Below, piece after piece: positions 1,545-9,042 of a stretch of 64,000 nt of DNA. Positions within the stretch are counted from its first letter, which is position 1, and each line of letters begins with the position of its first letter. The stretch comes from Kitasatospora albolonga. Lineage in GTDB: Bacteria > Actinomycetota > Actinomycetes > Streptomycetales > Streptomycetaceae. The translations under genes were made by a program, and so were the position numbers. The stretch lies in assembly GCA_002082585.1 (NCBI GenBank), contig CP020563.1, forward strand, positions 3,218,001 through 3,282,000, read 5' to 3'. The notes beneath the pieces were generated by a model. It was not told the origin of the DNA. It was given only the letters and a program-made list of their open reading frames with translations, and ran no database searches.

Positions 1545-1548
<4 letters not shown>
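1..1548 (-). CDS. Nonribosomal peptide synthetase, condensation domain (partial, runs off the left edge)
   Basis: Open on the minus strand from ATG at 1548 to the window edge (about 516 codons). The first ~60 residues are a Pro/Ser/Thr-rich linker, followed by a helix-like stretch (LSDAKRALLAQRLRGR) as often precedes a C domain, then a full condensation domain: PLSFAQERLWFMEQF near residue 105, the catalytic HHSVGDGW motif, and a C-domain tail reading HLDRLLRAV at the edge. The ATG overlaps the TGA of the upstream NRPS gene (ATGA, 1545-1548), so the two are translationally coupled. The C domain would condense the aminoacyl group held by the upstream carrier domain onto the next building block; the matching A domain must lie outside the window. 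This gene is easily missed because it has no stop in the window. Confidence 0.9.
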
Positions 1549-4838
<3,290 letters not shown>

Positions 4839-4993
4839 GTGCCGCGCTCCCCTGCTGCCGACGCCGGTGACGACACCACCGGGAATGGCGGGCAGCACCG
4901 GACGCAATTGCCGACGGGGCGTCAGAAAGCGGCCTGAGGGGTGGCGATGAAGCCTTCCGGCACCCCTTGCGGCCTCGGCCCCGGGCAACGGCA

Positions 4994-5023
4994 ACGGTAG
5001 GAGGAAGGAGCAGGTCAAGTCAA
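4994..5023 (-). promoter_or_regulatory. Candidate promoter for the NRPS operon
   Basis: Read on the minus strand, TTGACT (5023-5018) is followed after 18 nt by TACCGT (4999-4994), about 155 bp before the NRPS ATG. Two similar 15-mers, GCAACGGCAACGGTA at 4985-4999 and GCAACGGAAACGGAT at 5078-5092, flank it on the plus strand and could be a binding site pair. Sequence match only. Confidence 0.3.
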
Positions 5024-5280
5024 TGGTCTGGACCACGCGGAGGTGGCCGGTAGTGGCCGGGCGGGCGCCGACATAAAGCAACGGAAACGGATTAAATGCC
5101 CCCACCCCCTGGCTGGAATCACCGCACCTGCCCGGCGGGCACCACCCCGGAGCCCACAGCCCGAGACCGGAGAAACCCTGGGCCGACGACCGAGCCCGCA
5201 GCCCCACGCCCCACAGCCGAGACACCTTGAGCCCGCCGCCCGACGCACCCCGAGGCCCCGAGCCCCGTAAGCGCCACGAG

Positions 5281-7300: not shown

Positions 7301-8692
7301 CTAGGCGGTGGCGGGGACCGCCGCCTTGGGTTCCGCGTCGTGGACTCCGTCCCGGTCGGCGTCGTCGGACGGGCCGAACGTGTCGATCGAGGAGGACGAG
7401 GCCGAGTTGTACTTGTCGTGGTCGAGGATCTTCTCGCGGGCCGCGACGAGGACCGGGACCAGCGCCTGGCCGGTCACGTTGGCGGCGGTGCGGATCATGT
7501 CCAGGATCGGGTCGATGGCCATCAGCAGGCCGACGCCCTCCAGCGGGAGGCCCAGCGTGGAGAGGGTCAGGGTCAGCATGACCGTCGCGCCGGTGAGACC
7601 GGCGGTGGCCGCCGAGCCGATCACCGAGACGAAGGCGATGAGGATGTAGTCACCGATGCCCAGCTGGACGTCGAAGATCTGCGCGATGAAGATCGCCGCC
7701 AGTGCCGGGTAGATCGCGGCGCAGCCGTCCATCTTCGTGGTCGCCCCGAACGGGACGGCGAAGGAGGTGTACTCCTTCGGAACGCCGAGGCGCTCGGTGA
7801 CCCGCTGGGTGACCGGCATGGTGCCGACCGAGGAGCGGGAGACGAAGGCGAGCTGGATCGCGGGCCAGGCGCCCTTGAAGAACTGGAGCGGGCTGACCTT
7901 GGCGACGGTGGCCAGGAGCAGCGGGTAGACGCCGAACATCACCAGGAGGCAGCCGATGTAGACGTCGGCGGTGAACGTCGCGTACTTGCTGATCAGGTCC
8001 CAGCCGTAGGTGGCGATGGCGTAGCCGATGAGGCCGACGGTGCCGAGCGGGGCGAGGCGGATGACCCACCACAGGGCCTTCTGGAGCAGCTCCAGGATCG
8101 ACTGGCTGAGCGTGAGGATCGGCTGGGCCTTGTCGCCGAGCTTGAGGGCCGCGATACCGGCGACGGCCGCCATGAAGACGATCTGGAGCACGTTGAGCTC
8201 GGTGAACGGCGTGATCACGTTGCTCGGGATGATGCCGGTGAGGAAGTCGATCCAGCTGCCGGTGCGCTGCGGGAGCTCGCCGTCCTTGGGGGTCAGGCCG
8301 GTGCCCGCGCCGGGGTTGGTCACCAGGCCGATGAGGAGGCCGATGGCGACGGCGATCAGCGAGGTGATCATGAACCAGAGCAGGGTGCGGGTCGCCAGCC
8401 GGGCGGCGTTGTTGACCTTGCGGAGGTTGGTGATCGACACCAGGATCGCGAAGAAGACCAGCGGGGCGACGGCCAGCTTCAGCAGCTGGACGAAGATCGA
8501 GCCGATCTTGTCGAGCGTGGTGATCAGCCAGGAGACGTCGTGGCTGCGGGCGATCCAGCCGAGCAGGGCACCGAGGACCAGACCGGCGACGATCTGGGCC
8601 CAGAACGGGACCTTGGGTATACGTGAAGCGGGGCCGGAGCCGGTGGACGGCTGCTCGGCCTCGGGGGCTGCGGACGCGGAGTTCGCGGACAC
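7301..8692 (-). CDS. DAACS-family symporter (dicarboxylate/amino acid:cation; possibly cystine)
   Basis: A 463-aa multipass membrane protein. Start GTG 8692 is chosen because GGAG lies about 7 nt upstream; other starts lack a site. After ~28 polar residues come hydrophobic segments typical of the GltP/DctA/TcyP family. Family landmarks: a serine-rich hairpin (SRSSVGTMPVTQRV), FGATTKMDGCAAIY, and DMIRTAANVTGQ. The family couples uptake of C4-dicarboxylates, glutamate/aspartate or cystine to Na+ or H+. The gene alone does not tell the substrate, but it is preceded by a cysteine-rich leader ORF (8811-8918) and hairpin. I therefore infer a sulfur amino acid substrate such as cystine, as for TcyP of Bacillus. 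It is monocistronic and ends at the shared terminator. Confidence 0.92.
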   Translation of the reverse strand: MSANSASAAPEAEQPSTGSGPASRIPKVPFWAQIVAGLVLGALLGWIARSHDVSWLITTLDKIGSIFVQLLKLAVAPLVFFAILVSITNLRKVNNAARLATRTLLWFMITSLIAVAIGLLIGLVTNPGAGTGLTPKDGELPQRTGSWIDFLTGIIPSNVITPFTELNVLQIVFMAAVAGIAALKLGDKAQPILTLSQSILELLQKALWWVIRLAPLGTVGLIGYAIATYGWDLISKYATFTADVYIGCLLVMFGVYPLLLATVAKVSPLQFFKGAWPAIQLAFVSRSSVGTMPVTQRVTERLGVPKEYTSFAVPFGATTKMDGCAAIYPALAAIFIAQIFDVQLGIGDYILIAFVSVIGSAATAGLTGATVMLTLTLSTLGLPLEGVGLLMAIDPILDMIRTAANVTGQALVPVLVAAREKILDHDKYNSASSSSIDTFGPSDDADRDGVHDAEPKAAVPATA

Positions 8693-8769
8693 GGACACAC
8701 TCCAGTGGGGACGCATCGGAACGTACGAGGGCATACGTACGGTCGTGCGGTGGAACGGGGACGGGGTTC

Positions 8770-8796
8770 GCGGCGCCCGCGCCGGGGCGGCGCCGC
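8770..8796 (-). promoter_or_regulatory. GC-rich hairpin between leader ORF and symporter (putative attenuator)
   Basis: Perfect 8-bp arms GCGGCGCC (8770-8777) and GGCGCCGC (8789-8796) enclose an 11-nt loop. The hairpin begins 14 nt after the leader stop codon and ends about 77 nt before the symporter start. The position fits a terminator or other attenuating structure controlled by ribosome stalling on the leader. No U-run follows; alternative pairings were not modelled. Confidence 0.55.
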
Positions 8797-8810
8797 TGCA
8801 TGATGCCGTA

Positions 8811-8918
8811 TCAGACGTTGCGGCAACAGACCGCGGACATACAGCGGCAGAGATCGACGTGCAGGCGCGCCACGAGCGGGATGCCCGGGGCATGGCGGAG
8901 GCGCACTGCTGTCTTCAT
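8811..8918 (-). CDS. Cysteine-rich leader peptide (putative attenuator ORF)
   Basis: A 35-aa ORF from ATG 8918 to TGA 8811. It starts MKTAVRLRHAPGIPLVARL and continues HVDLCRCMSAVCCRNV. It has four Cys codons (residues 24, 26, 31, 32) in the last third. The HVDLC...C pattern matches the short actinobacterial 'putative leader peptides' found before sulfur-metabolism and transport genes, which are thought to sense cysteinyl-tRNA by ribosome stalling. Here the ORF lies 118 nt upstream of the symporter with a GC hairpin between them. It has no clear ribosome site: the bases before ATG read GTTAACGTGTTCGAC, so initiation on a very short 5' end is possible. The family match is from memory, not a search. 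Confidence 0.75.
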   Translation of the reverse strand: MKTAVRLRHAPGIPLVARLHVDLCRCMSAVCCRNV

Positions 8919-8940
8919 GTCGAACACGTTAACACTTGAA

Positions 8941-8957
8941 CTTTGAGAACCTCAAAG
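8941..8957. promoter_or_regulatory. 17-bp perfect palindrome upstream of the leader ORF (operator candidate)
   Basis: CTTTGAG-AAC-CTCAAAG has 7-bp perfect arms, 22 bp before the leader ATG. Read on the minus strand, the TTGAGG inside it could serve as a -35 element with TTAACG about 17 nt downstream. A dimeric repressor bound here would block that promoter. The rest of the 8958-9042 interval shows nothing else. Confidence 0.5.
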
Positions 8958-9042
8958 CCTTTCTTTGACCATGAGACATGGGGCAAACCGTCCCCCCGGC
9001 CGGAGAAAGACCGGCGAAAGACCCGACAACCGCCGCAGGAAC

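Follow-up and report, generated by a model that had tools for sequence, protein, structure and literature searches.

In mycobacteria, upstream ORFs containing cysteine codons have been reported to act as cysteine-responsive attenuators (Canestrari 2020, as cited in PMC9031893 and PMC13236596). The NCBIfam model NF042934 (cis_reg_atten) describes a putative leader, and stands beside two further models of Cys-rich leaders, NF042936 (Ms4527A) and NF042933 (Ms5788A). For Streptomyces lividans, the accessible part of one survey names eight leaders, none of them cysteine-dependent, and gives the metL leader three cysteines (PMC8079986). In E. coli, YdjN/TcyP is a cystine symporter, according to the excerpt of PMC4383340 used here.

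Here we analyze a 64,000-nucleotide stretch (the window) of the 8.03 Mb Kitasatospora albolonga genome (CP020563.1, positions 3,218,001–3,282,000). On the basis of sequence comparison we are fairly confident that a short ORF in this window is a cysteine-sensing leader peptide. It would control how much is made of a TcyP-like symporter, whose substrate would be cystine or a sulfur compound related to it. This description, a conserved cysteine leader of a known kind in a new place, is likely right. What the sequences themselves show is a leader that is conserved and specific to this gene, a UGU rule among the leaders sampled, two pairings that exclude each other, and TcyP-like residues in the transporter.

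Layout of the leader and the symporter

The leader ORF occupies positions 8811–8918 of the minus strand (ATG at 8918, stop at 8813–8811) and encodes a 35 amino acid peptide, MKTAVRLRHAPGIPLVARLHVDLCRCMSAVCCRNV, with the motif RLHVDLCRCMSAVC and cysteines at residues 24, 26, 31, and 32. An earlier sequence-only reading had reported this ORF with its four Cys codons, together with a hairpin at 8770–8796, 14 nt past the leader stop; the sequence confirms both, and the arms of the hairpin are GCGGCGCC and GGCGCCGC. Downstream lies the gene for a DAACS symporter (SDF, PF00375) of 463 amino acids (7301–8692, minus strand), which starts at GTG 8692 behind a Shine-Dalgarno sequence GGAG (8700–8703, minus strand). 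The (A)GGAG-7-GTG arrangement is found again in 72 of 79 loci. No stop interrupts the symporter reading frame as far upstream as an ATG at 8893, within the leader (window 8692–8893), so automatic callers may misplace the symporter start. Elsewhere in the window, the translation of a minus-strand ORF at 1545–5225 resembles, by eye, a nonribosomal peptide synthetase module.

A candidate −10 element, TAACGT (8926–8931, minus strand), lies 7 nt before the leader ATG, which suggests a leaderless start, and is invariant in a 19-row alignment. The spacing TTGAGG-18-TAACGT-7-ATG fits such a start; a scan for consensus promoters gave none. The likely −35 element TTGAGG (8955–8950) is overlapped by a palindrome, CTTTGAG-GTT-CTCAAAG (8941–8957, minus strand), a possible operator that is present among 79 loci in strict form in 46, in looser form in 7 and in neither form in 26, and that was also called terminator-like on the plus strand. 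Repeats of the form CAAAG...CTTTGAG-N3-CTCAAAG, at window positions 8941–8975, recur in many orthologues and are likewise operator candidates.

Conservation of the leader among orthologues

Our Streptomyces sample consists of the best 80 of 590 relatives found, all from Streptomyces and 75–92% identical. A first finder, H[VIL]D[LMIV], matched at 78 of the 80; it missed L065 and L067 and counted L033, whose leader looks frameshifted. A wider finder, numbered from the H of the motif, needs D(+2)-type residues, R/K(+5) and C(+11) and demands no codon; it was defined after five misses had been seen and was then run unaltered on paralogues. Applied uniformly, it places a leader upstream of 78 of the 80 orthologues, the misses being L033 and L067. 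The apparent absence of a leader at L065, L111, L116, L126, and L129 proved to be an artefact of requiring H, and the wider finder recovers all five. Upstream of L067 the leader has been naturally lost, with the promoter and the symporter Shine-Dalgarno sequence retained.

Searching 148 genomes sampled across the class gave 34 orthologues with at least 423.9 bits, whereas the other 50 matches listed, some of them fragments, reach at most 194.7. Within the genus, 6 of 11 genomes carry an orthologue. A leader precedes 30 of the 34, window included (28 of 30 loci and 2 of 4 extra stretches), and the wider finder detects none at L130, L134, L189, and L191. Nor is a leader found in the ∼600 bases upstream of 20 paralogues, drawn from those 50 lower-scoring matches, or in the same interval before the genome's own DctA-like gene (L104). 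The comparison across orthologues that the sequence-only reading had proposed therefore comes out in favor of the ORF, which is kept in both samples and absent from all 21 paralogues sampled.

For 76 unique Streptomyces leaders (window and L033 among them), constancy of H, V/I, D, L, and C(+4) is built in, since the search pattern asked for these residues. Residues nonetheless stay the same where some of the codons differ. Their H is encoded by CAC in 40 and CAT in 36, their D by GAT in 52 and GAC in 24, and R(+5) by CGC in 63 and CGG in 12. Residues that the pattern did not require are nevertheless constant: R(−2) and L(−5) in all 76, and S(+8) and A(+9) in 75 each. L(−5) is CTC in 75 of 76 and S(+8) is TCC in 73, and since these codons hardly vary, a constraint at the RNA level is also possible. 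With the wider finder, R(−2) is arginine in 77/78 family, 28/28 class-wide and 78/78 Streptomyces leaders; at the H position of the motif, 49 of the 78 wider-family leaders have H and 28 have A.

A family of cysteine leaders before sulfur genes

Against NF042934, the window's peptide scores 25.3 bits (E 8.2e-6; 24.0 bits in another search), below the curated cut-off of 27. Two of three orthologue leaders pass (32.2 and 33.9) and one fails (18.0), and two other leaders of the window's genome pass as well (38.3 and 30.9). By sequence, then, the window's leader is a homologue at the edge of the model, not a formal member, and this homology bears out the resemblance to actinobacterial cysteine-responsive leader ORFs that had been suggested for it. 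At E 0.001, 110 of 148 class genomes contain NF042934-type leaders, and the 14 control genomes, E. coli included, contain none. In a phylum sample searched at E 1e-5, the family appears in 11 of 198 genomes, class members only.

In the window's genome the model matches at 22 places with E ≤10, and the 12 with E <0.02 were examined. Sulfur-related genes lie behind 8 of the 11 leaders other than the symporter's: a nitrite/sulfite reductase, a cysteine dioxygenase with a rhodanese, a ThiS-type protein with a cysteine synthase (CysO-CysM), SfnG, an SsuC-like permease, a second rhodanese, a TauC-like permease and a TauD family protein. The remaining three, SBP_bac_5, a flavin reductase and a ROK regulator, are not counted. 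Cysteine synthase and SfnG are named from matches over cut-off, and the other names come from Pfam or NCBIfam matches below it; the nitrite/sulfite reductase scores best as a nitrite reductase, at 337.9 against a cut-off of 594. The symporter's own leader is a short ORF directly upstream on the same strand, and the sulfur link of its target is the inference under test. One family leader (L082; G000:C1:6378632-6378688) precedes the cysteine dioxygenase-rhodanese pair. Cysteine dioxygenase degrades cysteine, so control may run differently, or the other way, between genes.

A fixed UGU codon at position +11

Comparison of the leaders reveals one universal cysteine codon, a TGT located 11 positions after the H of HVDL in RxHVDLxR (8826–8828, minus strand). 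It is TGT in 78/78 Streptomyces and 30/30 class-wide symporter leaders, and in all 78 wider-family leaders that bear the motif (79 sampled; L201 lacks the motif). The family set comprises 12 leaders from the window's genome, the 30 best class-wide, 15 more class-wide and 21 from sampled genomes of the genus. These cases are non-independent, since the window, or the copy of it in its own genome, belongs to both the family and the class-wide set, and orthologous leaders recur within the genus set. At other Cys positions from H on, the same family leaders have 99 TGC and 21 TGT. For the first 30 leaders, the TGT:TGC ratio is 30:0 at +11 versus 7:32 at two other Cys positions (Fisher p 3e-13, relatedness ignored). 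As background, TGT accounts for 20 of the 119 Cys codons counted across 38 window ORFs and for 2 of 152 in Streptomyces symporter genes. Position +6, which is TGT in 40 of 65 Streptomyces symporter leaders, indicates that UGU is not rare at every other leader position.

A single cysteine from H to the stop is found in 14/78 family, 11/28 class-wide symporter and 0/78 Streptomyces symporter leaders. Conservation of the Cys codons, a check that the sequence-only reading had proposed, gives a divided result: the +11 codon is universal and the other Cys positions are not fixed class-wide, and a need for several Cys codons is not sustained by the 11 class-wide leaders with one. At L022 the stop codon immediately follows the +11 codon (TGT TAG), and 4/78 family leaders end in the same way; nothing past that codon seems to be needed.

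Our tRNA scan of the genome gives 66 matches, two of them tRNA-Cys and both with anticodon GCA (L265 received no call). The GCA anticodon decodes UGU via wobble, and with both tRNA-Cys of this type the +11 codon should be read in that way. The second tRNA-Cys is divergent (G000:C1:2646763-2646837; L255, L281) and has matches in 9 of 11 genus and 13 of 148 class genomes, as judged with a 75-base BLAST query that may miss distant copies. This tRNA is an unlikely reason for UGU: those 13 matching class genomes compare with leaders in 110 of the 148, and G089, which has no match, still has UGU leaders (L167, L288).

The UGU rule is unexpected, and is the part of this analysis worth a specialist's time. 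It is a simple, testable trait of a widespread leader family, in which two synonymous codons served by one anticodon are seemingly not interchangeable at one site. In our literature search we recognized no paper giving a UGU rule or this leader, though Canestrari 2020 might contain the rule. Tentatively, at somewhat less than even confidence, we propose that actinobacterial Cys leaders, as an entire family, sense cysteine through a single codon with help from the nascent chain: RxHVDLxR (or RxAVDLxR) would prime the ribosome from within the tunnel, and UGU, not UGC, at +11 would be the trigger. Such a sensor would account for the many leaders in which one Cys codon suffices, for peptide conservation that extends past the cysteines, and for a codon held constant although its synonym encodes the same amino acid. 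Attenuator theory, in the portion of PMC1183508 available, holds that sensitivity grows as regulatory codons make up more of the leader, and that it varies with the codon chosen. On that view a lone codon would require assistance, and the conserved peptide may supply it.

RNA pairings and a proposed mechanism

Two helices can form in the leader and the spacer that follows it. In helix A, the leader codons TGC CGC TGT ATG (8838–8849, minus strand) pair over 12 bp with CATGCAGCGGCG in the spacer (8791–8802, minus strand), so that the spacer arm pairs with Cys codons. Helix B is the hairpin at 8770–8796 (minus strand), with 8-bp arms at 8796–8789 and 8777–8770. Its 5′ arm overlaps the spacer arm of helix A, making the two mutually exclusive. 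For helix A, the best-helix score averages 23.0 over 77 loci, compared with 15.25 (sd 0.33) in 50 single-base shuffles.

Rows for a pairing alignment were chosen by CAG[CT]GGC, which selected 49 of 78 loci; the alignment holds 45 of these together with the window, and 29 of the 78 (site absent or duplicate) and 4 more were left out. Helix A is paired in 93.8% of cells, with one both-sided change in 536 cells. Covariation is absent from helix A in this chosen alignment, and because the helix hardly varies, this speaks neither for nor against it. Helix B is paired in 84.1% of cells (45 distinct rows), with 10 compensated cells, and none of 500 shuffles reaches as high, a control that kindred rows can pass without structure. 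The hairpin is only partly conserved, and the longer pairing of Cys codons with CATGCAGCGGCG competes with it. A role for it as the working attenuator is not supported: the hairpin has no U-tract, covariation is weak, and with a blocked ribosome the modelled access of the Shine-Dalgarno sequence averages 0.265–0.288 in all five states (77 loci), with no consistent change. An intrinsic terminator, and with it a classical transcription attenuator, is ruled out, as no terminator hairpin with a U-tract is found on the minus strand between 8600 and 9100. No Rfam family reaches its gathering score anywhere in the window. Clades seem to use differing spacer structures; in one Streptomyces clade (L072, L073, L078–L080), the stop-region TGACGT can pair, by eye, with a downstream ACGTCA instead of forming helix A.

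These features are best explained by a mechanism in which the leader ATG probably coincides with the transcription start or lies right beside it. Under a shortage of Cys-tRNA, translation would slow at the Cys codons, chiefly the fixed UGU at +11, at which time the RxHVDLxR of the nascent peptide would sit in the upper tunnel. The stalled ribosome would cover the leader arm of helix A, leaving the spacer arm free and allowing helix B to form; with plentiful cysteine, the ribosome would run on and helix A could form. The choice of helix would be read out as more or less symporter, via translation attenuation or Rho. We infer the leaderless start, the stalling, the ON structure and the readout, as we do the substrate.

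Identity of the symporter

The symporter matches its Pfam family with 354.7 bits (longer start). Pairwise scores against E. coli proteins are similar, at 32% identity (155 bits) with TcyP, 29% (165 bits) with DctA and 29% (164 bits) with GltP, so the overall score does not choose among them; signature residues do. GCAxxYP is present in 110/110 symporter orthologues and DPxLDMxRT in 107/110 (all except L032, L060, and L125), and GCAxxYP is present in 117 of 120 TcyP matches (the best 120 of 7999, all near E. coli TcyP). GCAxxYP and DP/EP, a signature noticed in the present comparison and not taken from a curated model, are common to the symporter and TcyP and missing in GltP, DctA, GltPh, 9bgz, and the DctA-like L104. 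No TcyP-named NCBIfam model matched, and E. coli TcyP itself matches only GltP/DctA models, below cut-off.

Trees join the symporter clade to TcyP with support of 100/100 (13 rows) and 96/96 (15 rows), and with a long-branch warning. When either group is left out, the remaining one, symporter or TcyP, branches next to 9bgz and GltPh and away from GltP/DctA; the join is open to long-branch error and is not secure. Cystine or some other sulfur compound is the probable substrate of the transporter, a prediction of the sequence-only reading that leader homology, the sulfur genes behind related leaders and the TcyP-type residues support at the sequence level. A transporter clade that carries the label dicarboxylate/amino acid in many Actinomycetes would thereby gain a sulfur substrate, and Cys leaders offer a means to guess the substrates of other transporters behind them.

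Alternative explanations

The fixed codon might be an RNA signal (S-UGU-Y) and not act through codon reading. The base 3′ of UGU is indeed a pyrimidine in 73/78, 26/28 and 78/78 leaders of the three sets, and the 5′ base is C or G with one exception. However, no longer nucleotide context is common across genes and genera, and the codon keeps a constant in-frame distance from the peptide motif, and we regard such a signal as unlikely. The conserved peptide residues could also point to a functional small protein, binding a metal or taking part in redox chemistry, and not to a cis-acting leader. We consider this very improbable: the ORF sits just upstream of the gene in the loci seen, +11 is the one cysteine fixed class-wide, 11 of 28 leaders having no second one from H on, L022 ends directly after the +11 cysteine, and a codon is fixed, not just a residue.

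How a cysteine-sensing leader would act on the symporter can be read differently from the helix switch proposed above. Translation of the leader could work via Rho-dependent termination or plain translational coupling, with helices A and B as GC-rich by-products. The missing U-tract, the absence of covariation in helix A and the unchanged Shine-Dalgarno access all fit this account, and Rho has been suggested for mycobacterial cys leaders, as a weak prediction, in the available part of PMC1262725. Yet helix A far exceeds shuffled spacers, its spacer arm is kept in near relatives with variable flanks, and helix B lies above all 500 shuffles, for what that control can tell among kindred sequences; we hold by-product helices to be possible, if somewhat doubtful. 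Doubt of a slightly higher degree attaches to the view that the leader senses cysteine and the symporter carries an acidic sulfur-containing analogue of aspartate (cysteate, cysteinesulfinate, sulfocysteine) or plain aspartate/glutamate, not cystine. In its favor, an aspartate transporter scores highest among solved relatives (263.7 bits), the symporter places near 9bgz/GltPh once TcyP is omitted, E. coli TcyP is annotated cystine/sulfocysteine, and other leaders of the genome precede sulfonate- and taurine-type genes. The symporter also retains the TM8 arginine, presumably the substrate residue known from GltPh work, but TcyP has the same arginine, which therefore does not discriminate between substrates. 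Against an acidic substrate, GCAxxYP and DP/EP are shared, among the proteins compared, with TcyP alone.

Comparison with known systems

Among the known systems closest to the cysteine-sensing leader proposed here, NF042934 has the same RxHVDLxR...C and sulfur genes downstream. It differs in that the window's peptide falls short of the cut-off, and a protein model cannot hold a UGU rule. The leaderless uORFs of mycobacteria, as far as the available text of PMC4633059 describes them, are also short Cys-rich ORFs before sulfur genes in Actinomycetes, and the leader here is probably leaderless too; their Cys codons are described as contiguous, whereas the leader here has them scattered, many relatives have scattered or single ones, and the gene downstream here encodes a DAACS symporter. 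In Rhodobacterales, uORFC-8-2 before cysS is another Cys-codon uORF, with control thought to run via ribosome stalling, but the accessible part of PMC8632094 gives it a U run at the end and UGC as the dominant codon. E. coli TcyP/YdjN shares the DAACS family, GCAxxYP and EP/DP in TM8 with the symporter; it is 32% identical, and the leader family turned up in class members only within the phylum sample at E 1e-5, and in none of the 14 controls, which include E. coli. Finally, the leu attenuator with its rare CUA codons is alike in that synonymous codon choice sets the sensitivity of the sensor. In the portion of PMC1183508 available, that theory rests on several isoacceptors, whereas both tRNA-Cys genes found here carry GCA.
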